This document shows, piece after piece, positions 43,433-64,000 of a stretch of DNA of 64,000 nucleotides. The stretch lies in NCBI GenBank assembly GCA_018830645.1, contig JAHJSA010000052.1, positions 1 to 64,000 of the forward strand, given 5' to 3'. The DNA comes from Actinomycetota bacterium. GTDB lineage: Bacteria; Actinomycetota; Thermoleophilia; RBG-16-64-13. Each line of letters opens with the position of its first letter. The stretch's first letter is position 1. The notes under the pieces were generated by a model. That model saw nothing but the letters and a program-made list of their open reading frames with translations. It did no database searches and was not told the DNA's origin. A program made the position numbers and the translations under genes.

Positions 43433-43843
43433 TTGACATACGTGACGTTCCACAAAGAGAAGTGCATAGCGTGCGATCTCTGTTCGGAGGTCTGCTCGCT
43501 GAGCAAGCTGGGTCGGATCCAGCCCGCAGCCGCGGCCATCCGCATCACGCGCGATCCCGCGGTGTACTTCGGAGAGATGCGCTGTGCCGTGTGCGACATG
43601 GCGCACGACCGCGCCTGTGTGGAGAGCTGCCCCGTCGACGCGCTCACGTTCGAAGAATCGTCCGGCGTGGTGCGGTTCGACGCGGAGCTGTGCACCGATT
43701 GTGGCGCCTGCCTCGACTCCTGCCCTAACGTGGCGCAGGACGCGATTTCCAGACGCATCATGATCTGCGACCTCTGCGACGGCGACCCCATGTGCGTGCA
43801 GTGGTGCCCGGAAGCGGCTCTTACTTGGGAGGCGGAAGCATGA
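43433..43843 (+). CDS. Polyferredoxin subunit paired with AOR-1
   Basis: A 136-residue protein with four cysteine clusters: CIACDLCSEVC, CAVCDMAHDRACVESCP, CTDCGACLDSCP and CDLCDGDPMCVQWCP, the HycB/CooF-like pattern for four [4Fe-4S] centres. A TTG start is favoured because GGGAGGGAGGA precedes it and upstream residues are unlike the family. Its stop overlaps the AOR ATG, indicating a stable enzyme pair in which it takes electrons from AOR. Confidence 0.88.
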   Translation: MTYVTFHKEKCIACDLCSEVCSLSKLGRIQPAAAAIRITRDPAVYFGEMRCAVCDMAHDRACVESCPVDALTFEESSGVVRFDAELCTDCGACLDSCPNVAQDAISRRIMICDLCDGDPMCVQWCPEAALTWEAEA

Positions 43844-45669
43844 AGTACGGCGGATACACGGGCAAGATCCTCACCGTGGACCTTGCGTCGGGTTCGTTCG
43901 GCGAGATGCCGGTCACCGAAGAGCTCGCCGAGGGGTACCTGGGCGGCCGGGGGTTTGCGGCCAAGATCCTCTACGACGAACTCGCGCCGGGAATCGACCC
44001 TCTCGGCCCGGAGAACAAGATCCTGTTCGTCACCGGACCCGCGACGGGCACTTTGGTGCCCACCGCGAGCCGCATCGGCATCGGCTGCAAGAGCCCACTC
44101 ACCGGCGCTCAGTCCGTGAGTTACATGGGCGGGCACTTCGGGGCCCAGCTCAAGTACGCCGGTTGGGACGGCATCCTCGTGAGCGGCGTCTCGGCCTCGC
44201 CGGTGACTTTAGTGATCGACGACGGTCGCGTGCGTCTGGACGACGCCACGGCGCTGTGGGGCAAAGACACCTACCAGTCCCAGAGGGAGCTCGCCGCCTT
44301 TCTCGGGCGCGACTTCCAATTGGGCGCTATCGGCCCCGCCGGCGAGAACCTCGTGAGCTACGCCAACTTCATGCACGTGCAGCACGCGGCGGGACGCGGC
44401 GGGATAGGCGCTGTCTTCGGCTCGAAGAAGCTCAAGGCCGTGGCGGTGCGCGGCACGGGCGGGATCACCGTGGGCACCTCCACCGCCGAGTACATCACGC
44501 AGTGCCGTGAGCTCCACCAGATCATCATGGAGAACCCGGTACGCGACGGCTTCCGCTGGTTCGGCACCACCGGCATGCTTCCCTACATGAACGAAGTAGT
44601 AGGGCTGCCCTACCGAAACCACCAGGACGATCGGGCTCCCGACGTCTCGGACATCCACAACGAAGAGATCGCCAAGTACGTCAAGCGGTATGAGGCGTGC
44701 GGCGGGTGCAACGTGATCTGCGGCTCGGTCGTTGAGTTCGAACGGCAGGGGCGGAGCTATCGCACCGAGCGTATCGAGCACGAGTCGGTGTGGGCGCTCG
44801 GACCCCTGTGCGGCATCACCGACCTCCCGGCCATCATGGAGGCGGGCCACGTGTGCGACCTCCTGGGGATGGACACGATGAGCGCGGGAGCCGCCCTCTC
44901 CTGGGCGATGGAGGCACGAGAGAAGGGGCTTCTCTCGGCGGCCGACGTGGACGGTTTAGATCTCAGCTTCGGCAACGCCGACGTGCTCTACGATACGCTC
45001 CACCGCATCGCGGCCCGCGACGGTTTCGGCGATGTTCTCGCCCGCGGCTCGCGCGGCGCCGCCGAAGCGGTGGGTAAGGGCGCGGAGCTGGCCATGCAGG
45101 TGAAAGGGCTCGACATCGCGGCCTACGCGCCGCGCGGCTTCAGCGGGATGGCCTTGAACTACGCCACCGCCGCCCGCGGCGCCGACCACAACAAGGCCTT
45201 CACCGTGGCGGCGGAGTTCCTCGGAGTCCTCGGCGACTACGATCGATACGACACGACCGGCAAGCCCCGCCTCGTGAAGACCATGCAGGACAGCACCGCG
45301 GTCATCGATTCGTTGATCATGTGCATGTTCACCGTGGATCTGGGCATCAGCGTCGAGCTGTACGCGCGCTGTGGGAGCCTCCCCACGGGCATGGACCTCA
45401 CCGCCGACGACGTCTATACGATCGGCGAACGCATCAATACCGTGGAGCGTTTGTTCAACGTGAGGGAAGGCTTCACCCGGGCTGACGACCGCCTTCCCGG
45501 CCGGTTCGCGGCCGAGGCCGCGCCGTCGGACCCGGGAGCGCACACGGTAGACGTCGCCTCGTTGATGGACGAGTACTACGTGGAGCGTAGCTGGGACACG
45601 CAAGGGGTTCCTACCGGAACGATGCTCGCCCGGCTGGGGCTCACGGACATGGCCGCCGCTGTGAGATGA
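43840..45669 (+). CDS. Tungsten-type aldehyde:ferredoxin oxidoreductase 1
   Basis: A 609-residue AOR-family enzyme, which holds a bis-pterin tungsten cofactor and one [4Fe-4S] cluster. Marks are KILTVDLASGSF and YLGGRGFAAKILYDEL at the N-terminus, GPATGTLVPTASR, AIGPAGENLVSYANFMHV, GRGGIGAVFGSKKLKAVAVRG, the cluster motif CGGCNVIC (CX2CX3C) near residue 289 and a late Cys in IMCMF. AORs oxidise aldehydes to acids, or run in reverse with reduced ferredoxin. It is coupled with a polyferredoxin and followed by the GntR regulator. The substrate cannot be told. Confidence 0.92.
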   Translation: MKYGGYTGKILTVDLASGSFGEMPVTEELAEGYLGGRGFAAKILYDELAPGIDPLGPENKILFVTGPATGTLVPTASRIGIGCKSPLTGAQSVSYMGGHFGAQLKYAGWDGILVSGVSASPVTLVIDDGRVRLDDATALWGKDTYQSQRELAAFLGRDFQLGAIGPAGENLVSYANFMHVQHAAGRGGIGAVFGSKKLKAVAVRGTGGITVGTSTAEYITQCRELHQIIMENPVRDGFRWFGTTGMLPYMNEVVGLPYRNHQDDRAPDVSDIHNEEIAKYVKRYEACGGCNVICGSVVEFERQGRSYRTERIEHESVWALGPLCGITDLPAIMEAGHVCDLLGMDTMSAGAALSWAMEAREKGLLSAADVDGLDLSFGNADVLYDTLHRIAARDGFGDVLARGSRGAAEAVGKGAELAMQVKGLDIAAYAPRGFSGMALNYATAARGADHNKAFTVAAEFLGVLGDYDRYDTTGKPRLVKTMQDSTAVIDSLIMCMFTVDLGISVELYARCGSLPTGMDLTADDVYTIGERINTVERLFNVREGFTRADDRLPGRFAAEAAPSDPGAHTVDVASLMDEYYVERSWDTQGVPTGTMLARLGLTDMAAAVR

Positions 45670-46478
45670 CGGGGAGTCTTGATCCTGTGAAGAAGGGCCG
45701 CAAAAAGGGCATACCGCTGTACTTCCAGGTGAAGCGGTCCCTCAGTGACCAGATCCTGTCTGGAAGGCTGCCCGCAGGGGAGCAGATCCCCTCAGAGTCG
45801 GAGCTCACGACATCATTCGGCGTGAGCCGCGTCGTGGTGCGGCAGGCGCTCCAGATTCTCGAGGATGAGGGTCTTATCTACCGGGTGAAGGGGAAGGGCA
45901 CGTTCGTCACCGACGACGTGGACAAAGACAGGACCCCTCGCCTCTCCGGTTACCTTGAAGATCTCATAAACATCGGTCTCGCCATGGAGGTGAAAGTCCT
46001 CGAGTTCGGCCTCCGGAAGGCCACCGCCGACCTGGTGCCGATTCTTGATGTCGACGACGGTTCCGACGTGTTCTTCGTGAAACGACTACGGCTTGTCGAC
46101 GGGCGGCCGTTCTCGGTGATCCACAATTTCGTTCCATACGACATCGGGAAGCAGATACCGCTCGAAGCTCTGGAGAGCGAACCCCTCATGCAGTTGATCG
46201 AGACCCGCACCGGCGAGTCCATCGACTGGGCCTCAGAGGTGTTCCAGGCCGTGTCGGCCGACTCCGAGCTCGCTGGGCTCCTCGAGGTCGACATCGTGGC
46301 TCCTATCCTGAAGATGATCCTCACCGCGTACTCGCCCAGCGGGCGGGTGGTGAACCTGGCCCACGTGTTCTACCGCTCCGACCGCTACAACTACCGCGGC
46401 CATCTCAAGCGGCGGCGCACGGACGAGTTCATAGGCTGGGTACCCATCGAGATCGCCCAAGGGGGAGCGAGGCGGTAG
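45666..46478 (+). CDS. GntR-family regulator with UTRA domain
   Basis: A 270-residue regulator. The N-terminal winged helix reads PLYFQVKRSLSDQILSGRLPAGEQIPSE and VSRVVVRQALQILEDEGLIYRVKGKGTFV (in pieces), and the C-terminal UTRA effector domain runs from about residue 90, with LRLVDGRPFSVIHNFVP typical. It overlaps the AOR-1 stop. A matched bipartite operator occurs at the head of its own operon (36285) and just downstream of it before the next unit (46506), so it is the probable regulator of both. The effector is likely the imported compound or a product of it. Confidence 0.92.
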   Translation: MTGSLDPVKKGRKKGIPLYFQVKRSLSDQILSGRLPAGEQIPSESELTTSFGVSRVVVRQALQILEDEGLIYRVKGKGTFVTDDVDKDRTPRLSGYLEDLINIGLAMEVKVLEFGLRKATADLVPILDVDDGSDVFFVKRLRLVDGRPFSVIHNFVPYDIGKQIPLEALESEPLMQLIETRTGESIDWASEVFQAVSADSELAGLLEVDIVAPILKMILTAYSPSGRVVNLAHVFYRSDRYNYRGHLKRRRTDEFIGWVPIEIAQGGARR

Positions 46479-46505
46479 AGGCGGGCGTGCGACGCGTGCT
46501 GGCAA

Positions 46506-46542
46506 ACTTGTGTGGTATAAACATATTAAGATTAGTACAAGT
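46506..46542 (+). promoter_or_regulatory. Promoter and bipartite operator of the Fe-ADH/AOR operon
   Basis: ACTTGT (46506-46511) and ACAAGT (46537-46542) form a perfect 6-bp inverted repeat with a 25-base spacer containing -10 TATAAA (46516-46521). Over 37 bases it agrees with the site at 36285-36321 at 28 positions, including TTAGTACAAGT. A small hairpin, CCTCGG-AGAG-CCGAGG, follows at 46559-46574. Confidence 0.65.
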
Positions 46543-46634
46543 TGCGCGCCGCGCGGAACCTCGGAGAGCCGAGGTGTGCCGTTTGGCGGAGCGGGGAAGC
46601 GCCCTTTGAAAAATACCGGAACGGAGGTGCTCGG

Positions 46635-47789
46635 ATGGACAGGCAGCCGTTGACGTTCTTCATCCCCACGCGTGTGGTGCACGGGCTGGGATCGGTGGCA
46701 GGTGTGCCGGCGCTCGTGGGGAGCTCCGGCGGCACTCGGGTGTTCCTCTGTGCTGATGAAGGCCTCACCCGCGCCGGCGTGACCGGCCGGGTCTCCGGAT
46801 TGCTGGAGGCGGCGGGCATCCCCTTCGTCGTGTTCGATTCGGTGGAGGAAGACCCCGGTACGCGTACGGTGCATTCCGGCGTAGAGTTGTTCAAAGCGGA
46901 GGGCTGCGACCTCGTCGTCGCTCTGGGCGGCGGGAGCCCGCTGTGCGCGGGCAAGGGCATCGCCCTGGTGGCCGCCAACGGCGGCGCGCTCACCGACTAC
47001 GAAGGCTTCAACAAGGCTTCCGTCGGCCCGTATCCGGTCATCGCCATCCCAACGACCGCCGGTTCGGGCACGGAGGTGTCCAAGGTCACCATCCTCACCG
47101 ACGAGGCCCGGGGCTTCAAGATGTCGATCCTTGATGAGCGCACCTTCCCGCGGGTGGCCGTACTCGATGGGGAGCTCATGGCCACGCTGCCCGCCCGGCC
47201 GGCGCTGGTGGCCGGTATGGACGCCCTCGCCCACGCCCTGGACGCTCTCTGGTCGGTGGGAGCCACTTCCTTCTCCGACGCTCTGGCCGTGACCTCGGCC
47301 GCCACGATCTTCGAGATGCTGCCTCGGGCCGCCCTCACGGGCGACCTGGCGGCGAAGCAGGCCATGTTGGAAGCCAGCTCGGCGGCCAACATCGCCACGG
47401 GCACCGCGCTCCCCGGGTTGGCGCACGTGTTGTCTCAGCCCCTCGGCCGATACCACATGTCGCACGGCCTGGCCACGGGGATCATGCTGCCTCATACCTT
47501 CGAGTTCAATCTGCCGGTGGCCGCTCACACCGTCGCTCCCATTGCCAGGCTGCTCGGGGCCGACGGCTCCGAGAAGGAGCTCGCCCGGTGGTTGCTCGAT
47601 CGCTTGTGGGAGTTGATGGAAGAGGTGGGCTTCCCCACGTCCCTCGATCCCTCGCTGGTGCCCCTTGCCGACCTGCCGATTCTGGTGGAGCAGTGCACTA
47701 AAGTGGTCAATTACCGGCTCAACCTGCGTCAGGCTTCCCCGGCCGATCTCACCGAGCTGTACATGGCGGCGTTGGAGGAGGAGTCATGA
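46635..47789 (+). CDS. Iron-containing alcohol dehydrogenase
   Basis: A 384-residue group III alcohol dehydrogenase; it interconverts an alcohol and an aldehyde with NAD(P). Nucleotide-binding GGGSPLCAGKG lies near residue 98, followed by IPTTAGSGTEVSKVTILTD. Metal ligands are expected in GMDALAHALDA and in LAHVLSQPLGRYHMSHGLATG. GGAGG lies seven bases before the ATG. First gene of a long operon; it overlaps AOR-2. It may reduce or supply the aldehyde handled by the AORs. Confidence 0.92.
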   Translation: MDRQPLTFFIPTRVVHGLGSVAGVPALVGSSGGTRVFLCADEGLTRAGVTGRVSGLLEAAGIPFVVFDSVEEDPGTRTVHSGVELFKAEGCDLVVALGGGSPLCAGKGIALVAANGGALTDYEGFNKASVGPYPVIAIPTTAGSGTEVSKVTILTDEARGFKMSILDERTFPRVAVLDGELMATLPARPALVAGMDALAHALDALWSVGATSFSDALAVTSAATIFEMLPRAALTGDLAAKQAMLEASSAANIATGTALPGLAHVLSQPLGRYHMSHGLATGIMLPHTFEFNLPVAAHTVAPIARLLGADGSEKELARWLLDRLWELMEEVGFPTSLDPSLVPLADLPILVEQCTKVVNYRLNLRQASPADLTELYMAALEEES

Positions 47790-49663
47790 GCCGTGACGAT
47801 GCTGTGACGGGGGGCTCCCGTGTGCTGGTGGTGGATGTCGGCACCGGCGAGACGAGTGAGGAGACGCTCTCCCCGCAGGTGACCCGCGATTTCGTGGGCG
47901 CCCGCGGGCTGGGGGCCTACTACCTCTTCAAGAACCTGGAACCCGGCATCGATGCGCTGGACCCCAGGAACCCGCTGATCTTCGGTGCGGGCCCCTTGGC
48001 GGGAACCACCGCCCCCGGGGGAGCCCGAGCGTCGCTGGTGACGAAGTCGCCTCAGACCGGCATCTACCTGTTCAGTATCACCAGTGGCCGGCTGGGTCCG
48101 GCCCTCAAACGGTCCGGGTACGACCTCGTCGTGCTCACCGGCCGCGCCGAGCGGCCGGTGTACGTGGAGATGGACGGGGGTCGCGTCCGAGTGCGTGACG
48201 CCGAGCACCTGTGGGGCCTCGACACGCAGGCCACTCAGGAGGTGCTGCGGATCGAGCTTCGCGACGACAAGGCGGCCATCACGTGCATCGGGCCGGCCGG
48301 GGAGCGTCTCGTGCCGAGTGCGAACCTCATCAACGAGCGGCGCGCTCTCGGCAGAGGTGGAGCCGGCGCCGTGATGGGTTCGAAGAACGTGAAGGCCCTC
48401 GTGATCCGCTGGGGTGATGAGGCGCCGTCTCTAGCCGATCCCGCCGGCTTTCGCGCCGCGGCCCGCGCCGCGGTCCGCGAGCTAAGAGCCCACCCGTTCA
48501 CCTCGGGCCCACTGAAGGCCTTCGGCTCCGTGAGCACGGTGGCCGTGGCCGCGCACGCGGGGATCCTGCCCGCGGACAACTGGCGGCGCACCGCGTCGCC
48601 GGAGGAAGCGGAGCGGCTGATGGGTGACGAGCTGCGCGATCGGTACCTGGTGAAAGACGTGGCGTGCGGCGATCCCTGTCCGTCGCGGTGCTCGAAGATC
48701 ACGGTGGTGCGTGAAGGGCCCTACGCCGGTTCCATGACCGAGGGGCCGGAGTACGAGACCGTGTACTCGCTCGGCACCGCCTGCGGCGTCTTCGATCTGG
48801 CGACCATCATCCACGCGGATAGCCTCTGCGATCTCTACGGGATCGACTCGATCTCGGTGGGAGTCACGATCGCGTTCGCAATGGAGTGCGCCGAGCGGGG
48901 ACTCCTTTCCGAGGAGGACACCGGCGGGCCGTTGCGCTTCGGCGACGGGGAAGCGGTGGTGCGTCTCGTGCGCGACACCGCTTTCCGGGAGGGTCTCGGC
49001 GCGCGGCTCGCCGCCGGCACCCGGGCTCTGGCCGCCGAGATCGGCGGTGGCGCCGAAGGCTTCGCCATGCACGCGAAGGGCATGGAGCTTGGAGGCTACG
49101 ACCCGCGGGGAGCGAAGGGTATGGCCCTGGTGTACGCGTGCGGCCCCCGGGGCGGGTGTCACCATGCCGGTGGCTACACTGTGGCCGTGGAGCTGAGCAA
49201 CCCCGACATCGACAGGTTCGCCGACACGGGCAAGGCCCGGTTGACCTTGGGCACGCGCGATCGGCGCGCCGGCTTCGCCGACGCGGCCGGTACCTGCGCG
49301 TTCCTGATCGTGGGGCTCCAAGACGGCACAGTGGCCGACTTGGTGTCGGCGTCCTCCGGATTCGATTACTCCCCTGCCGATCTATACCTGGCGGGAGCGC
49401 GCATCAACGCCCTCGAGCGGGTGATCAATGTGCGGGAGGGTGTGCGTCCGGAGGACGATTCCCTGCCTGCGCGGCTCACGGCCGAGACCCTGCCCGATGG
49501 CCCGGCGGCCGGACAGAGGGTGGACCTCGCGCTCATGCGTTCGGAATTCTACCGCGAGAGCGGTCTGGATCCTCGCACCGGGCTGCCCACGAGCGAGACA
49601 TTGGAGCGATTGAGCCTGGCGTGGGTGCTTGACGATCCCGCCGTAGCGGCGCTGACGGGATAG
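47786..49663 (+). CDS. Aldehyde:ferredoxin oxidoreductase 2, variant cluster spacing
   Basis: A 625-residue AOR-family protein: VGARGLGAYYLFKNLEPGID, ITCIGPAGERLVPSANLINE and GRGGAGAVMGSKNVKALVI are standard. The iron-sulfur region reads CGDPCPSRC near residue 295, a CX3CX3C spacing in place of the usual CX2CX3C seen in AOR-1 and AOR-3 here. A late Cys is present in AAGTCAFLI. Its stop and start overlaps place it firmly in the operon. It may have a different redox partner or substrate from the other two. Confidence 0.88.
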   Translation: MSRDDAVTGGSRVLVVDVGTGETSEETLSPQVTRDFVGARGLGAYYLFKNLEPGIDALDPRNPLIFGAGPLAGTTAPGGARASLVTKSPQTGIYLFSITSGRLGPALKRSGYDLVVLTGRAERPVYVEMDGGRVRVRDAEHLWGLDTQATQEVLRIELRDDKAAITCIGPAGERLVPSANLINERRALGRGGAGAVMGSKNVKALVIRWGDEAPSLADPAGFRAAARAAVRELRAHPFTSGPLKAFGSVSTVAVAAHAGILPADNWRRTASPEEAERLMGDELRDRYLVKDVACGDPCPSRCSKITVVREGPYAGSMTEGPEYETVYSLGTACGVFDLATIIHADSLCDLYGIDSISVGVTIAFAMECAERGLLSEEDTGGPLRFGDGEAVVRLVRDTAFREGLGARLAAGTRALAAEIGGGAEGFAMHAKGMELGGYDPRGAKGMALVYACGPRGGCHHAGGYTVAVELSNPDIDRFADTGKARLTLGTRDRRAGFADAAGTCAFLIVGLQDGTVADLVSASSGFDYSPADLYLAGARINALERVINVREGVRPEDDSLPARLTAETLPDGPAAGQRVDLALMRSEFYRESGLDPRTGLPTSETLERLSLAWVLDDPAVAALTG

Positions 49664-49671
49664 GAGGAACA

Positions 49672-51288
49672 TTGGGCTACTACGCCGATCTCAGGGAGTA
49701 CATCTCGGAGTTGGAGGCACGCGGCCTCGTCCGCCGTGTGTCCTCCAGGATCTGCAAGGACACGGAACTGATGCCGCTGGTGCGCCTCCAGTTTCGAGGG
49801 TTGCCGGCCGAGCAGCGGACCGCCTTCGTCTTCGACGACGTGACCGACGTGGCCGGCCGGCGGTATCGCGGGAGCCTCGCGGTGGGCGTGCTCGGAGCAA
49901 GCCGGGGCGTGTATGCCGCGGCCTTGGGATGCCGGCCGGAGGAGATCCGCGAAAGGTGGGCTGCGGTGCATCGTGGCTACGTGGAGCCCAGGATGGTGAC
50001 CGATGGGCCGGTGAAGGAAGAGATCCACGTGGGTGAGGGGTTGCTCGAGCACGACGGTCTGCTGGAATTCCCGCACCCGATATCCACACCCGGCTTCGAC
50101 CCCGCTCCCTTCCTCACGTCGCCGTACTGGATCACCAAGGACCCCGAGACCGGCGTGCGCAATGTGGGCACCTACCGGGGCATGATCAAAGGGCCGGGGC
50201 GCACCGGGGTCATGGTCCATCAGTCGCAACACATCGGCCTGCACTTCCAGAAGGCGAAAGCACGGGGGCAGAACTTGGAAGCGGCCGTGGTGGTGGGATG
50301 CGTTCCCGCGGTGGGCCTCTGCAGCGTTGCCAAGATCCCGTTTGGCATCGATGAGTACACCGTGGCCGGTGGCATAGCCGGCGGTCCGCTCGATCTGGTG
50401 AAATGCGAGACGGTGGATTTGGAGGTGCCGGCCGCGGCCGAGATCGTGATCGAGGGCTACATCGACACCTCATACCGTGAGGCCGAGGCGCCCTTTGGGG
50501 AGTACACGGGCTACATGGGCACGCGCGCGATGAACCCCGTGTTCACCGTCACCGCGATCACCCACCGGAAAGAGCCCATGTATCAGGCCTTCCTGAGCCA
50601 GTTTCCGCCGTCGGAGAGCAGCCTCATTCGCAAGCTCGCGTACGACGGCGTGTATCTGAACTTCCTCAAGAACGACTGCAATATCCCGGGCGTGCTCGAC
50701 GTGCAGCTGCACGAGTCCACGGGGAGCTACGGCCTCATGGTGATCCAGCTGCGCAAGTCGCACCACGCTCAGCCCTGGCAGGCCTTGAACGCGGCCGTGG
50801 CGCTCGACCCGACCATCGGCAAGACGATAGTGGCCGTGGACGAAGACATCGACCCCGCCGACGCCGACGCGGTGAACTGGGCCATGGCGTACCGGATGAG
50901 ACCGCACCTGGACGTGCGCATCACCACCGGAAAGATGTCGATCCTGGACCCGTCTTCGGCGCCGCCCGACGCTCCGGTAGACGAACAGCGTTTCCCGCCG
51001 CCGGTGGGGACCTCGGCGATGCTCATCGACGCCACCATCAAATGGGACTACCCACCCACTTCGCTGCCGCGCCGCCCTTTCATGGAGAAGGCGATAGAGC
51101 GCTGGAAGGCGGAGGGGTTGCCCGAGCTCTCGCTTCGAAATCCGTGGCACGGCTACGAGCTGGGCTACTGGACGGACGAGGCGCGCAGGGAGGCCGAAGC
51201 CGCCACCGAGGGGCGCTACCTGGAGACCGGCGACCGGCTGTTGTCGTCGAGGGAAGATCTGCCGCGCGAACGCGGCGGGGAAGGGTAG
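49672..51288 (+). CDS. UbiD-family (de)carboxylase of the AOR operon
   Basis: A 538-residue protein, longer than UbiD at 7616. The prFMN-enzyme carboxylate motif EAPFGEYTGY has both Glu residues (E-X4-E) near residue 268, and the arginine region is NVGTYRGMIKGPGRTG near 160. A TTG start follows GGAGGAAC at a good distance. Its place between AORs suggests decarboxylation or carboxylation of an aromatic, heteroaromatic or alpha,beta-unsaturated acid. It is too distant from the quinone-type copy to share its substrate. Confidence 0.9.
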   Translation: MGYYADLREYISELEARGLVRRVSSRICKDTELMPLVRLQFRGLPAEQRTAFVFDDVTDVAGRRYRGSLAVGVLGASRGVYAAALGCRPEEIRERWAAVHRGYVEPRMVTDGPVKEEIHVGEGLLEHDGLLEFPHPISTPGFDPAPFLTSPYWITKDPETGVRNVGTYRGMIKGPGRTGVMVHQSQHIGLHFQKAKARGQNLEAAVVVGCVPAVGLCSVAKIPFGIDEYTVAGGIAGGPLDLVKCETVDLEVPAAAEIVIEGYIDTSYREAEAPFGEYTGYMGTRAMNPVFTVTAITHRKEPMYQAFLSQFPPSESSLIRKLAYDGVYLNFLKNDCNIPGVLDVQLHESTGSYGLMVIQLRKSHHAQPWQALNAAVALDPTIGKTIVAVDEDIDPADADAVNWAMAYRMRPHLDVRITTGKMSILDPSSAPPDAPVDEQRFPPPVGTSAMLIDATIKWDYPPTSLPRRPFMEKAIERWKAEGLPELSLRNPWHGYELGYWTDEARREAEAATEGRYLETGDRLLSSREDLPRERGGEG

Positions 51289-51292
51289 ATAG

Positions 51293-52483
51293 ATGGTCGA
51301 CATCGCCGTAGACTTCGCGGGGCTCCGGCTCAAGAACCCCTTCATCATCGCTTCGTCGGAGCTCACCAACACCCTGGACAAGGTCAAGACCGCCGAGGAG
51401 CGCGGCGCCTCGGCGGTGAGCACCAAGCTCGCCTTCCTGCACGTGCCCTTCCCGGCCCGCCCCTACCACATCGTCGAGCGGCACGGCGGCTTCTACTCCC
51501 CTTCCGGTGAGCGTCTGGACGTGGAGCGGGCGCAGCGGCTCATCCAGGAGTCGAAGGAGCAGACCGAGTTGGCGGTGATCGCCAACATGATGGGCCCCGG
51601 CGAGGATCTCGAGGGCTGGGCCACCTTGGGCCGCATGCTCGAGGAAGCGGGCGCCGACATGCTCGAACTGAACATGTCGTGCCCGAACGTGGGCCTGATG
51701 GCCAAGCAGCTCGGGGTGGAAGCTCCGCCGGAACTGGGCGCGTTCTTGGGCCAGAACCCGCAGCTGGCGGGTGAGGTTGCCCGCGCAGTGTCTGCCGCGG
51801 TCTCGATCCCTGTCATGGCCAAGATGACGCCCGAAGCCAACACGCGCCTCGTGGCCGCCGCCTGCGCGGCCGGCGGCGCGGCGGCCGTCGCGGCCATCAA
51901 CTGCCCGCAGTCGCTTCCGGGCCTGGATATCTACAACGGCGGCCGCCCCCTCTATCCCACGGTGCGCAACCAGTCGTTCGCGGGGTTGTGCGGCCCCTGG
52001 ATCAGGCCGCTCGCCTACCGCCACGTGGCCCAGATCCGTCAGGCTCTGCCCGACTTCCCCATCGCCGGCGGAGGCGGCCTCATGAACTGGCGCCACGTGG
52101 TGGAGATGATCATGTACGGGGCCACCTCGGTGACCTTCTGCTCGCTGCTGTACCTCAAGGGCTACACGTCGTTCAGCAAGATTGAAGGGGGCCTCCGGAA
52201 GTTCATGGAGGAGGCCGGCTACGAGTCGCTCGCCGACTTCCGCGGCCTCGCCCTCCCGTACATCGTCACCCCCGACCAGGTGGACTATGTCACCAAGCTG
52301 CCGGCGTTCGATCTCGAGAAGTGCAATGGCTGTGGGATGTGCGCGGCCCCCGGCCACTGTGAGTGCATCGAGATGATCGACGCTGTGCCGGTGCTGGTGA
52401 AGCCCGAAGAATGCTATTCCTGCGCGGTCTGCTACTTCCTATGCCCGCGCGACGCCATAGCGATGGAGGAGGTCACGGCATGA
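51293..52483 (+). CDS. PreA-like dihydroorotate/dihydropyrimidine dehydrogenase with two Fe-S clusters
   Basis: A 396-residue FMN TIM-barrel protein (LKNPFIIASSELTNTLDKV, ANMMGPGEDLEGWATLGRML, MLELNMSCPNVG, AGGGGLMNWRHVVEMIMYGAT) fused to a C-terminal ferredoxin domain with CNGCGMCAAPGHC and CYSCAVCYFLCP. PreA reduces the pyrimidine ring in dihydropyrimidine dehydrogenase; no PreT partner is seen. The role here could be ring or double-bond reduction using electrons from the AORs. It overlaps AOR-3 by four bases. Confidence 0.88.
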   Translation: MVDIAVDFAGLRLKNPFIIASSELTNTLDKVKTAEERGASAVSTKLAFLHVPFPARPYHIVERHGGFYSPSGERLDVERAQRLIQESKEQTELAVIANMMGPGEDLEGWATLGRMLEEAGADMLELNMSCPNVGLMAKQLGVEAPPELGAFLGQNPQLAGEVARAVSAAVSIPVMAKMTPEANTRLVAAACAAGGAAAVAAINCPQSLPGLDIYNGGRPLYPTVRNQSFAGLCGPWIRPLAYRHVAQIRQALPDFPIAGGGGLMNWRHVVEMIMYGATSVTFCSLLYLKGYTSFSKIEGGLRKFMEEAGYESLADFRGLALPYIVTPDQVDYVTKLPAFDLEKCNGCGMCAAPGHCECIEMIDAVPVLVKPEECYSCAVCYFLCPRDAIAMEEVTA

Positions 52484-54441
52484 ACGGCTGGGCGGGACGC
52501 ATCATCCGCGTAAACCTGACCGCCGGAACGATCGCGGTAGAGGATCTCGACCCGAAGTTCGCCCGGGAGTTCATCGGAGGGCGGGGGTTCAACGCGAAGA
52601 TCATCTACGACGAGTACGACCCGGCCAACCGAGACCCCTTCAGCCCGGACAACATCTTCTGCGTGAGCACAGGGCTCCTGGGTGGCACCCTCGCCCCCGC
52701 CGCCGGGCGCACCACCTGCTCCGTCGCCATCAACCCCATCACCGGGGTCTTCGGCGACGGCAACGCGGGGGGCCATTTCGGCGCGGAACTCAAGCAGGCT
52801 GGATACGACACCATCGTGGTGAAAGGGGCCTCCGAGACCCCCGTGTACCTTTCCATCTACGACGACGAGGTCGAGCTCCTCGACGCCACACCCATCTGGG
52901 GCAAGGTAGTCACCGAGTCGGACGAGTGGCTGCGCGCCCGCATCGGCGACGCTCAGGCCCAGGTGTACACCATCGGTCCCGCCGGCGAGAACCTGGTCAG
53001 CATCGCCATCCCTCTCTGCAACCTCACGCGGGCGCCGGGTGGGGGCGGCACCGGCGGGGTGCTGGGCTCGAAGAAGCTGAAGGGGATCGTGGTGCGCGGC
53101 ACCCGCGGCGTCGGGATCGCCCGGCCCGAGGAGTTCAAGGCGGCGTGCGAGGAGTCCTTCGACCATCTCACAAATCACCCGCTCTACGCGTCGTGGGCCA
53201 AGTATGGCACTCCGGTGCTCCTCGGTGTGTATAACGCGGGCGGTGCGCTGCCTGTGAAGAACTGGCAGACGGGCACGTTCGAGGGGTGGGAAGGGCTCGA
53301 CGGTGCCGCCTTCGTGGAGAAGTATTCCAAGAAGTCCAAGGGGTGTTTCACGTGCCCCATGCACTGCAGCCACTTCTGGGAGATCACCGACGGGCCGTAC
53401 GCCGGCACGAAGCAGGAGGGTGTTGAGTACGAGGCCACCGACGGCTTCGGGGCGCGTAGCGGCAACGCGAACCTGGCCTCCACCCTCTACCTCAACAAGC
53501 GCTGCAACGAACTCGGAGTCTGCGTGGTGCAGACGGCGAACGTCTATGCCACCGCCAAGCACCTGTGGCAGGACGGGATCATCGACGCCACCGACACGGG
53601 CGGGCTCGATCTGTCCTGGGAGAACTGGGAGGACATGCCCGCGGTGGTGGAGCAGCTTGCGCGGCGGGAAGGCTTCGGGGGCCTCTGGTCGGAGGGCGTC
53701 TACCAGGGCTGCCAGAAGATAGCTGAACTCAAGGGTCTACCCGAGGAGCAGGTGACCAGGTACGCGATCCAGTCGAAGAAGATGACCCTCTCCTCGTACG
53801 ACCCGCGCCCCCTCAAAGGCGGGGCCCTCGAGGTGGGCACCTCCACCCGGGGCGCCGATCACCTGCGGGGCCTGCCGACGCTGGAGGTCTTCGGGCACTG
53901 GTACCGCGACAAGCAGGAGGACGTGGTCAACGACCTCGACGTGCCGGCGGAGGTGGTCGCCCGGTGGTTCGAGCTGGACCTCCTCAAGAAGGAGAAGTAC
54001 GAGGGCAAGGAGGAGATGGTCAAGTACTACCAGGACCACTGCGCCATGGCCGACGCCCTCGAGATCTGCAAGTTCATCACCTCCTGGCGGTTCGGCATCG
54101 GAGCACCCCGCATGGCCCGGCTGATGAGCGCGGCCACGGGCGTCGACTACACGTGGCAGGACGTCCAGGAAGCAGGCGATCGACTCTACACCCTGGAGTA
54201 CGCCCTGCAGCGGCGCTACGGGTTGGGTCGGGCTGAGGACATGCTGCCCGACCGTTTCTACGAGGAGGCGCTCCCCAGCGGGGCCGTCATCGACCGCGAG
54301 AAGTACGAGGAGATGCTCACCGCGTACTACGTCCTCAGGGGATACGACAAGGACACCGGTACGCCCACCGAGGAGAAGCTCCGTTCGCTCGGCCTCGACG
54401 ACGTTGCCGACGATCTGAAGAGCCGCGGAATCATCCCATGA
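52480..54441 (+). CDS. Aldehyde:ferredoxin oxidoreductase 3
   Basis: A 653-residue AOR-family protein starting MNGWAGRIIRVNLTAGTI, with GGAGGAGG just upstream. Marks include FIGGRGFNAKIIYDEYDP, TIGPAGENLVSIAIPLCN, GGTGGVLGSKKLKGIVVRG and the cluster motif CFTCPMHC near residue 290. It is the third AOR of the region and is also somewhat longer than the other two. Three AOR paralogues in one regulon suggest several aldehyde or acyl steps, or specialised partners. Confidence 0.92.
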   Translation: MNGWAGRIIRVNLTAGTIAVEDLDPKFAREFIGGRGFNAKIIYDEYDPANRDPFSPDNIFCVSTGLLGGTLAPAAGRTTCSVAINPITGVFGDGNAGGHFGAELKQAGYDTIVVKGASETPVYLSIYDDEVELLDATPIWGKVVTESDEWLRARIGDAQAQVYTIGPAGENLVSIAIPLCNLTRAPGGGGTGGVLGSKKLKGIVVRGTRGVGIARPEEFKAACEESFDHLTNHPLYASWAKYGTPVLLGVYNAGGALPVKNWQTGTFEGWEGLDGAAFVEKYSKKSKGCFTCPMHCSHFWEITDGPYAGTKQEGVEYEATDGFGARSGNANLASTLYLNKRCNELGVCVVQTANVYATAKHLWQDGIIDATDTGGLDLSWENWEDMPAVVEQLARREGFGGLWSEGVYQGCQKIAELKGLPEEQVTRYAIQSKKMTLSSYDPRPLKGGALEVGTSTRGADHLRGLPTLEVFGHWYRDKQEDVVNDLDVPAEVVARWFELDLLKKEKYEGKEEMVKYYQDHCAMADALEICKFITSWRFGIGAPRMARLMSAATGVDYTWQDVQEAGDRLYTLEYALQRRYGLGRAEDMLPDRFYEEALPSGAVIDREKYEEMLTAYYVLRGYDKDTGTPTEEKLRSLGLDDVADDLKSRGIIP

Positions 54442-62571: not shown

Positions 62572-62601
62572 TTGACAATCGCCCCTCAGTTCGCATATGG
62601 T
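62572..62601 (+). promoter_or_regulatory. Promoter of the DUF2180 leader RNA
   Basis: TTGACA at 62572-62577 with an 18-base spacer and TATGGT at 62596-62601. Initiation near 62608 would place the structured RNA at the 5' end of the transcript, as expected for a riboswitch. Confidence 0.6.
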
Positions 62602-62618
62602 TTGCAGACGACCGTCAC

Positions 62619-62714
62619 GGGCTACCCTGCGGAAGGGACGGCAAGGCTGTTTGGGTTTTCCGCCTACGCACAGCCGAGCTGCCAGGAGTTTCTGGCAGCT
62701 CGGCTGTTTGTTTT
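62619..62714 (+). ncRNA. Candidate riboswitch, copy 1 (upstream of DUF2180 gene)
   Basis: GGGCTA is followed by a CCCT-GCGGA-AGGG hairpin (62625-62637), then ACGGCAA and GGCTGT (62645-62650), which can pair with ACAGCC (62670-62675). The same ACAGCC begins a 16-bp terminator stem, so the two pairings exclude each other. Copy 2 at 63254 repeats the layout. The ligand and class are not recognised. Confidence 0.65.
62670..62714 (+). terminator. Intrinsic terminator of leader copy 1
   Basis: A perfect 16-bp stem (ACAGCCGAGCTGCCAG at 62670-62685, complement at 62692-62707) with a 6-base loop and TTTGTTTT at 62707-62714. No complete gene lies between the promoter and this hairpin, so it acts as an attenuator of the gene at 62885. 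Confidence 0.88.
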
Positions 62715-62884
62715 CCCGGGTTCAGGTCGTGGCGAGGTGACGAAGGGAGGAGGTGAGGAGATATCGCGGCCGTGCCTGCGACTTGAAGAGCGCCCGGAGC
62801 CCGCAGCAGGAGGCGCAGCCGGAGTGGCGGCGGTGTAGGAATCGCGTGTAGTGCACGTGGAACGCAGGGAGGAAGGGGGTAGGT

Positions 62885-63088
62885 ATGCAGTGTTATGTGT
62901 GTGCTCAGTCGGGCAAGGAGACCGAAGCTCTTGGCATTTGTATCGTCTGTGGCATGGGTCTTTGCAAAGACCATGCGATCAGGGAAGACGTCGATCTGTG
63001 GGAAGGCGGCTACCCGTTCCCCAGCAAGAAAGCCAAGAAGAAGCTTCCGAGGATCCTGTGCGCGGAATGCGCTGAGGTGCTGACGTAG
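62885..63088 (+). CDS. Small zinc-ribbon protein, DUF2180 type
   Basis: A 67-residue protein with CYVCAQSG, CIVCGMGLCKDH and CAECAEVL, enough for two zinc sites, and a conserved WEGGYPFPSKK. I recall this family mainly from methanogenic archaea. Its gene sits 170 bases after an intrinsic terminator and candidate riboswitch. GGAAGGGGG lies upstream of the ATG. Function is unknown; control by the same RNA as DUF2193 implies a shared role. Confidence 0.8.
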   Translation: MQCYVCAQSGKETEALGICIVCGMGLCKDHAIREDVDLWEGGYPFPSKKAKKKLPRILCAECAEVLT

Positions 63089-63253
63089 GCGAACGAAGAA
63101 GGGACGCAGCGGGCGGAAACGCTCCTGGCGGGTGATTGAGGAGGTGGTGCCGACTCAAAGATACGCGCAAGTAGATGTGCCGGAATGGCCATCGCAGGTT
63201 TCGAACGGTTTCAGCAGGTTTCACTAGACGAGTGGCATTGTAGTAGAAGCACA

Positions 63254-63345
63254 GGCTACCCTGCGGAAGGGACTGCCAGGCTGTAGGTGTTCCGCTTGAA
63301 CACGGCCGAGCTGCCAAGAGGAGACTCTTTGTGGGTCGGTTTTTT
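63254..63345 (+). ncRNA. Candidate riboswitch, copy 2 (upstream of DUF2193 gene)
   Basis: Starts GGCTACCCTGCGGAAGGGAC, identical to copy 1 over the first hairpin. GGCTGT (63279-63284) can pair with ACGGCC (63302-63307), where one pair is G-U compared with copy 1. A GTGTTC-CGCTT-GAACAC hairpin lies between. The shared GCCGAGCTGCCA leads into the terminator. The upstream gap 63089-63253 has no gene. Confidence 0.65.
63304..63345 (+). terminator. Intrinsic terminator of leader copy 2
   Basis: Outer CCGA (63306-63309) pairs with TCGG (63336-63339), and an inner AAGAG-GAGA-CTCTT hairpin is perfect. A T6 run follows at 63340-63345. The stem uses the same GCC that would pair in the alternative upstream helix. 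Confidence 0.75.
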
Positions 63346-63487: not shown

Positions 63488-64000
63488 ATGTCGCTGTATG
63501 AGAAGATGATCAATGAGGCAGTCGGGGCAACGAGAGCTGTTTTTGGCGTGAACAAGGCGAATCGGGGCGGAACGTTCAAAGTTGCAGACGCCAAGCCCTA
63601 CGTCGACGCTGTGAACAAGATGAAGGCGGCCGACGGGCAGTCCAAGGAGGTCATCGCCCTCCACGTGGACTCGGTGAATGCCCACTTCGACATCATGACG
63701 AGTCTGTGCGAGACGGTGCGCCCCGAAGACGATCCGTTTGTGGAGCACTACCAGACTCCGCCCATCCTCGAGATTCTGTACGAGGAAGATTCGGCCTTCA
63801 AGGACTCGATGTGGAAGTTCATCGATGCCATCGGAGCCAACAAGGCTTTGGTTGGACGGGAAGCGGTGCGGCGCTACGGGGGCATGTACGGTCCGACGTG
63901 CGTGGTGGACTTCGCCATGTCCGTAGGCTCCGTGCCGAACCTGGTCAACCAGATCCTCATCGGCTTGGACATCCCGGCAGACCACAAGAAGACGATTCTG
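63488..64000 (+). CDS. DUF2193-type protein, 3' end outside window
   Basis: 171 residues are visible from ATG 63488, preceded by GGGAGGGAAC. Conserved stretches are MSLYEKMINEAV, KVADAKPYVDAVNKMKAADG, EDDPFVEHYQTPPILEILYE and RRYGGMYGPTCVVDFAM. I recall the family from methanogenic archaea, where it is about 490 residues and uncharacterised. It is soluble, without signal peptide. Its expression is probably set by the leader RNA at 63254. Confidence 0.8.
   Translation, partial: MSLYEKMINEAVGATRAVFGVNKANRGGTFKVADAKPYVDAVNKMKAADGQSKEVIALHVDSVNAHFDIMTSLCETVRPEDDPFVEHYQTPPILEILYEEDSAFKDSMWKFIDAIGANKALVGREAVRRYGGMYGPTCVVDFAMSVGSVPNLVNQILIGLDIPADHKKTIL

Follow-up and report, generated by a model that had tools for sequence, protein, structure and literature searches.

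Near the end of the analyzed window (the whole 64,000-nt stretch of DNA), genes encoding proteins of the DUF2180 and DUF2193 families each follow a leader containing the same sequence element. The locus raises the question of what this element is and to what it responds. It almost certainly belongs to an RNA family with a loop-loop (kissing) helix; action by transcriptional attenuation is very probable, and the function of a riboswitch binding a small molecule is probable. On the whole, we favour with reasonable confidence a new class of cis-regulatory RNA, a riboswitch acting on transcription termination ahead of tetrahydromethanopterin (H4MPT)-linked C1 gene clusters headed by DUF2180/DUF2193. 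The family, the predicted kissing helix, the strand shared by aptamer and terminator, the putative terminators and the gene association can all be read from the sequences.

Two copies of the element in the window

The first-pass annotation had described two copies of a riboswitch-like RNA, and the duplication is real: the 20-mer GGCTACCCTGCGGAAGGGAC has exact matches at 62620-62639 and 63254-63273 (0.01 expected, from shuffled windows), and these are its only sites in the whole genome, even with up to two mismatches allowed. GCCGAGCTGCCA is likewise common to both leaders.

The aptamer of copy 1 (62620-62683, plus strand) was delimited by sequence and covariation. It is predicted to begin with the 5′ strand of helix P0 (GGCU, 62620-62623), whose 3′ strand (AGCU, 62677-62680) is followed by GCC (62681-62683). 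Helix P1 (CCC/GGG) pairs 62625-62627 with 62635-62637 around the loop-1 arm GCGGAA (62629-62634), and segment J1/2 (ACGGCAA, 62638-62644) leads into helix P2 (62645-62650 with 62670-62675), which encloses the loop-2 arm UUCCGC (62658-62663). Compensatory changes in the 16 distinct copies of the family support pairing of the two loop arms on this strand (62629-62634 with 62658-62663). A predicted intrinsic terminator (62670-62715, plus strand; 17-bp stem, 62670-62707, with a U-rich tail) follows, its 5′ arm being the P2 3′ arm plus AGCUGCC. The promoter proposed for this copy was found again as a sigma-70-type sequence, TTGACA-18-TATGGT (62572-62601, plus strand), matching 10 of 12 consensus positions (0.2 promoter-like sites expected in shuffles) and predicting an RNA start just upstream of copy 1. 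The same promoter layout precedes copies C1, D1, K1, L1 and M1 in other genomes. Downstream lies the DUF2180 gene (62885-63088, plus strand; 67 aa, Cys-rich; PF09947, E 1.5e-36).

Copy 2 (63254-63315, plus strand), supported by the same kinds of evidence, has P0 at 63254-63257 with 63309-63312, P1 at 63259-63261 with 63269-63271 and P2 at 63279-63284 with 63302-63307; its kissing helix would join the loop-1 arm 63263-63268 to the loop-2 arm 63290-63295. It continues as a GU-rich stem with GGUUUUUU at its end, the predicted intrinsic terminator 2 (63304-63345, plus strand), in which a diverged 3′ arm still pairs, via G-U, with the 5′ arm GGCCGAGCUGCCAAGAG ahead of a U-run. No obvious promoter of its own was found in the copy 2 leader. 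The gene that follows encodes a 510-aa DUF2193 protein (63488-64000, plus strand, running past the window to contig position 65020; PF09959, E 4.4e-79), so both gene identifications of the first-pass annotation stand. So do its observations on the second helix: GGCUGU/ACAGCC in copy 1 corresponds to GGCUGU/ACGGCC in copy 2 (U-A to U-G), and in both copies the 3′ arm of this helix (with GAGCUGCC) doubles as the terminator's 5′ arm. Upstream of both copies, three aldehyde:ferredoxin oxidoreductase genes and a UbiD-family decarboxylase gene form one stretch (43792-54441).

Distribution of the RNA

Genome scans and covariance-model searches yielded 17 copies of the RNA, 16 of them distinct (the B2 aptamer is identical to A2), in 14 genomes of Actinomycetota and Chloroflexota. 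The 20-mer precedes the same genes in other genomes of the same order, with two copies in LH_M24, two in FR_37 and one in Soudan_30, where it precedes DUF2180-DUF2193. The Thermoleophilia genome FR_37 has lost DUF2180, and its two RNA copies stand in tandem with the intervening gene gone (L060:13775-14311). A pattern scan of 85,000 species, in which the P1 letters were left free, returned the known genomes and one new well-folding match, on the Guaymas Chloroflexi contig L036. Covariance models R1-R3 added the Chloroflexota genomes G415, G817, G870, G904 and G1052, and four genomes from a second family in the class of the window (G1114, G1116, G1125 and G1147). Most new copies were detected by scanning whole genomes without regard to neighbouring genes.

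Across two phyla, 14 genomes carry the motif ahead of DUF2180 or DUF2193 homologues or of an associated gene. This excludes a merely local duplication, which the first-pass annotation had named as an outcome that would count against it. That the copies are locally duplicated terminators or attenuators, or leader-peptide attenuators, with no aptamer at all, is hardly credible. The 20-nt identity within the window's genome alone would fit a recent duplication, but the RNA spans two phyla and its loops have diverged in a compensated manner. A leader-peptide attenuator was rejected on aptamer lengths alone: these are 62, 63, 64, 65, 66, 70, 72, 74 and 75 nt, and since the differences are not multiples of 3, no conserved reading frame passes through the aptamer.

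Several further matches were attributed to chance. These comprise the 3-mismatch pattern-scan matches L011, L014, L015 and L016; all pattern-scan matches without P1 complementarity, that is, all except L022, L033, L036 and L044; and the covariance-model matches L053-L058, L066, L074/L081, L076 and L130 (about 25-31 bits), none of which combines a kissing helix with a fitting context. A scan of viral contigs gave chance matches only.

In a sample of 346 genomes of one Chloroflexota class, the RNA is present in four of the 12 that bear DUF2193, and in the other eight it was not found even with filters off; DUF2193 can therefore be controlled otherwise. The RNA-less DUF2193 leaders L097-L101 and L103-L105 gave no match to R2, none to R3 run without filters, and none to Rfam up to E 1. 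Placed on the DUF2193 tree, presence of the RNA needs three changes, which implies more than one loss, replacement or relocation. The RNA-less genes L097-L100 and L103-L105 likewise lie behind long leaders; several of these contain a promoter and hairpins resembling terminators, none matches an Rfam family, and they are possibly other regulatory RNAs.

Predicted fold and covariation

P1 is CCC/GGG throughout, or CCCA/UGGG in Chloroflexota copies with a CGCAA-type loop, while P2 (GCUGU/ACAGC) occurs in the compensated variants GUCGU/GCGGC, GUUGA/UCAAC and GCUGC/GCAGC. The strongest evidence, absent from the first-pass annotation, is the complementarity of loops 1 and 2 (GCGGAA/UUCCGC in the window). 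It is kept through the variants GCGGAU/AUCCGC, GCGGAG/CUCCGC, ACGGAU/AUCCGU, CGCAAC/GUUGCG, UGCAA/UUGCG and GCAAC/GUUGU, and, in a shifted register, UGCGG/CCGCA and CGCGG/CCGCG. What is conserved in the loops is thus complementarity and not letters; the conserved letters lie at the junction.

In the 16 distinct copies, 89 of the 96 pair cells of the kissing helix are paired and 21 are doubly changed. Re-dealing the partners in 20,000 shuffles left 62.7 cells paired on average and 85 at most. A tree-based null model, which starts from the paired state and keeps the per-column change counts, reached at most 85 paired and 16 doubly changed cells in 5,000 simulations (p = 0.0002). By corrected mutual information, the column pair that ranks first also belongs to this helix. 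The structural alignment of the 16 copies was made by hand with the kissing helix in mind, which biases it in the helix's favour; this bias is insufficient to explain the signal, given the effect size and several perfect six-base swaps. Row N1 of the alignment has a loop-2 spacer one base short in the re-dealing test and a trimmed junction in the tree-based test, and the columns counted for the kissing helix are unaffected in both. For P2, the count of paired cells gives support (90 of 96, p = 0.01), and the double changes by themselves do not (p = 0.1). In P0 (GGCU/RGCY) all variable letters are compatible with pairing and the changes are one-sided only; it is plausible that this helix would close a three-way junction. 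The invariant elements GGCUACCC, GGGA and RGCYGCC fit a conserved core. The covariation called for in the first-pass annotation is therefore strong, and all computational tests proposed there came out in its favour.

Comparison with known RNA classes

The first-pass annotation did not recognize the aptamer as a known class, and the searches agree with this. Against Rfam 15, which includes the purine, THF and Moco riboswitches, no covariance model matched the window at its gathering threshold, and relaxed thresholds gave chance-level matches only. The same search of L083, L084, L085, L036, L007 and L060 returned RF01055 alone, elsewhere than the new RNA. The purine riboswitch (RF00167) resembles the new RNA in the proposed three-way junction, in two hairpins with pairing loops and in an aptamer 3′ strand shared with the terminator. 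The two differ in that the new RNA lacks an Rfam match, has a loop helix of up to six continuous Watson-Crick pairs and a P1 of only 3-4 bp, stands in a C1 rather than purine gene context, and shows no resemblance to the letters conserved in purine riboswitches. The THF riboswitch (RF01831) combines a junction and a pseudoknot in an aptamer for a pterin cofactor. The clusters of the new RNA use H4MPT, an analogue of THF, and the link to this ligand is an analogy only; architecture and conserved letters differ, and again there is no Rfam match.

Terminators and proposed switching mechanism

In the RNA described here, a terminator hairpin can form in all 16 distinct copies, with the P2 3′ arm plus RGCYGCC as its 5′ arm. 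The 3′ arms diverge yet remain paired, largely through G-U pairs, which indicates that the conserved 5′ arm serves the aptamer as well. The U-tracts of three copies of the f76 family (H1, I1 and J1) are weak, so termination is less certain in these. Predicted nested aptamer folds (kissing helix not included) range from -14 to -22 kcal/mol, and terminator stretches, in which the minimum-energy stretch sometimes takes in bases past the terminator, from -20 to -50 kcal/mol. The aptamer is thus generally the weaker fold, which suits a switch that is OFF by default.

Termination by default with signal-dependent read-through is the simplest reading, and an ON logic is likely. In the proposed mechanism, the two hairpins would meet at the junction and their loops would pair with each other. 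Without the signal the terminator would win and transcription would stop. The signal, which is most likely a small molecule from C1/pterin metabolism, would stabilize the kissing-loop fold, which would hold back the shared 3′ strand and let RNA polymerase read through. Copy 1 would gate the whole operon, and copy 2 would gate DUF2193 and the later genes once more. The retention in FR_37 of two serial copies with no gene between them fits such double gating, of which tandem switches in one operon would be a natural case.

Switches of biosynthetic genes are mostly of the OFF type, and several genes of the clusters are biosynthetic (e.g. that for beta-RFAP synthase). We nevertheless consider it quite unlikely that the ligand acts by promoting the terminator or blocking an antiterminator: the shared, conserved 3′ strand makes aptamer and terminator mutually exclusive, and an alternative antiterminator was not observed.

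The fold could also be stabilized by a protein or another RNA in place of a metabolite. ANTAR/RAT-type antitermination employs two hairpins, the second overlapping the terminator, and the geometry of the new RNA is the same; in either system, stabilizing the second hairpin would give read-through. An RNA-binding protein acting in the ANTAR or LicT manner, with no direct binding of a small molecule, would find a candidate in DUF2180, which is small, Cys-rich and adjacent to the RNA in most Actinomycetota copies. This protein is, however, encoded in only seven of the 14 RNA-bearing genomes and is missing, for example, from FR_37, which has both RNA copies. DUF2180 therefore cannot be a universal protein effector, and no candidate protein common to all 14 genomes was found. 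Moreover, the loops of ANTAR targets are conserved in their letters, unlike those of the new RNA, in which the letters are conserved at the junction, as in ligand-binding aptamers. We regard a protein antiterminator as unlikely. Three features expected of a riboswitch were found: a position in the 5′ leader of metabolic genes on the same strand, a conserved structured core with covariation, and an expression platform that excludes the aptamer in every distinct copy.

Gene context and candidate ligands

Every copy of the RNA belongs, on the same strand, to the leader of a DUF2180 or DUF2193 gene or, in L036, of the gene for a family-less 596-aa protein (p596). The DUF2193 call in G415 is based on resemblance to G838 and on the first 26 residues, which lie at a contig end and are too few to give a Pfam match. 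Clusters on sufficiently long contigs extend into genes for an aquaporin-family channel, an FMN reductase, beta-RFAP synthase, DUF447, methylene-H4MPT dehydrogenase and subunits of formylmethanofuran dehydrogenase, and thus encode a C1 pathway of archaeal type, linked to tetrahydromethanopterin and formylmethanofuran. This gene company favours an H4MPT/methanofuran-linked C1 molecule (cofactor, C1-loaded cofactor or C1 substrate). A tentative proposal is that the RNA responds to tetrahydromethanopterin or methanofuran, or to a C1 intermediate bound to either of these; metals and products of DUF2193 are possible alternatives. Judging by titles and the opening parts of abstracts, none of the literature joining riboswitches and methanopterin appears to describe this RNA. 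If the proposal is true, a cofactor of archaeal-type C1 metabolism would have its first RNA sensor, and the functions of DUF2180, DUF2193 and p596 would become easier to approach. In uncultured Actinomycetota and Chloroflexota, the RNA would tie the archaeal-type C1 pathway to a specific signal. As a reporter on the substrate or cofactor of DUF2193/DUF2180, it could make their function testable by ligand screening even though the hosts are uncultured.

The first-pass annotation had also considered a cofactor- or metal-related ligand conceivable in view of nearby tungsten enzymes, an idea that gained no support. Aldehyde:ferredoxin oxidoreductases and formylmethanofuran dehydrogenase in the vicinity would suit a second Moco-type switch sensing the Mo/W cofactor or metals. 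In G817 and G870, however, a separate Moco/Tuco riboswitch (RF01055), different in size and sequence, is present in the same clusters, downstream of DUF2193 and ahead of the SDR-ThiS-AOR genes, whereas the new RNA precedes DUF2193 and itself has no RF01055 match. The new RNA thus probably senses something other than Moco/Tuco, and we give the Mo/W reading little credence. The RF01055 copies lie at L083:10498-10618 and L084:4732-4852 (both minus strand; 57 and 56 bits), so that two different RNA switches occur in one cluster in these two Chloroflexota genomes.

The L036 genome has the RNA and lacks DUF2193. At L036:412-2861, p596 stands beside a LarC2-type nickel-insertion protein (LarC1 is lacking) and heads an H4MPT/Fwd operon. 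The p596 protein, which matches no Pfam or NCBIfam family, is 75-93% identical across two phyla. It is encoded in six of the 14 RNA-bearing genomes, and the five RNA-less DUF2193 genomes tested all lack it. Predicted structures of DUF2193 and p596 are of low confidence (pLDDT 40 and 42), no sequence relative of either was found in the PDB, and the two proteins are unrelated. The plasmids searched for DUF2193 contained none.

No mention of DUF2180 was found in the literature, and DUF2193 is named in a single paper (PMC9431491), which reports it to be well conserved in methanogens and up in Methanococcus voltae grown on pyrite; this makes a link to iron or sulfur possible. A AAGGAGGTGA-like sequence, complementary to the 16S 3′ end, is found at a long distance ahead of the start codon in leaders of DUF2193, both RNA-bearing and RNA-less (L116-L119 and L121-L123), and also in L036 and L052; no conserved short ORF was recognized there. 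Finally, the 3.2-kb contig L003 (G116:C43), from an Actinomycetota bin, carries an archaeal-looking promoter sequence and an archaeal-type DUF2193 gene beside an aquaporin gene. It is probably a contamination, and it shows the DUF2193-aquaporin neighbourhood outside these bacteria.
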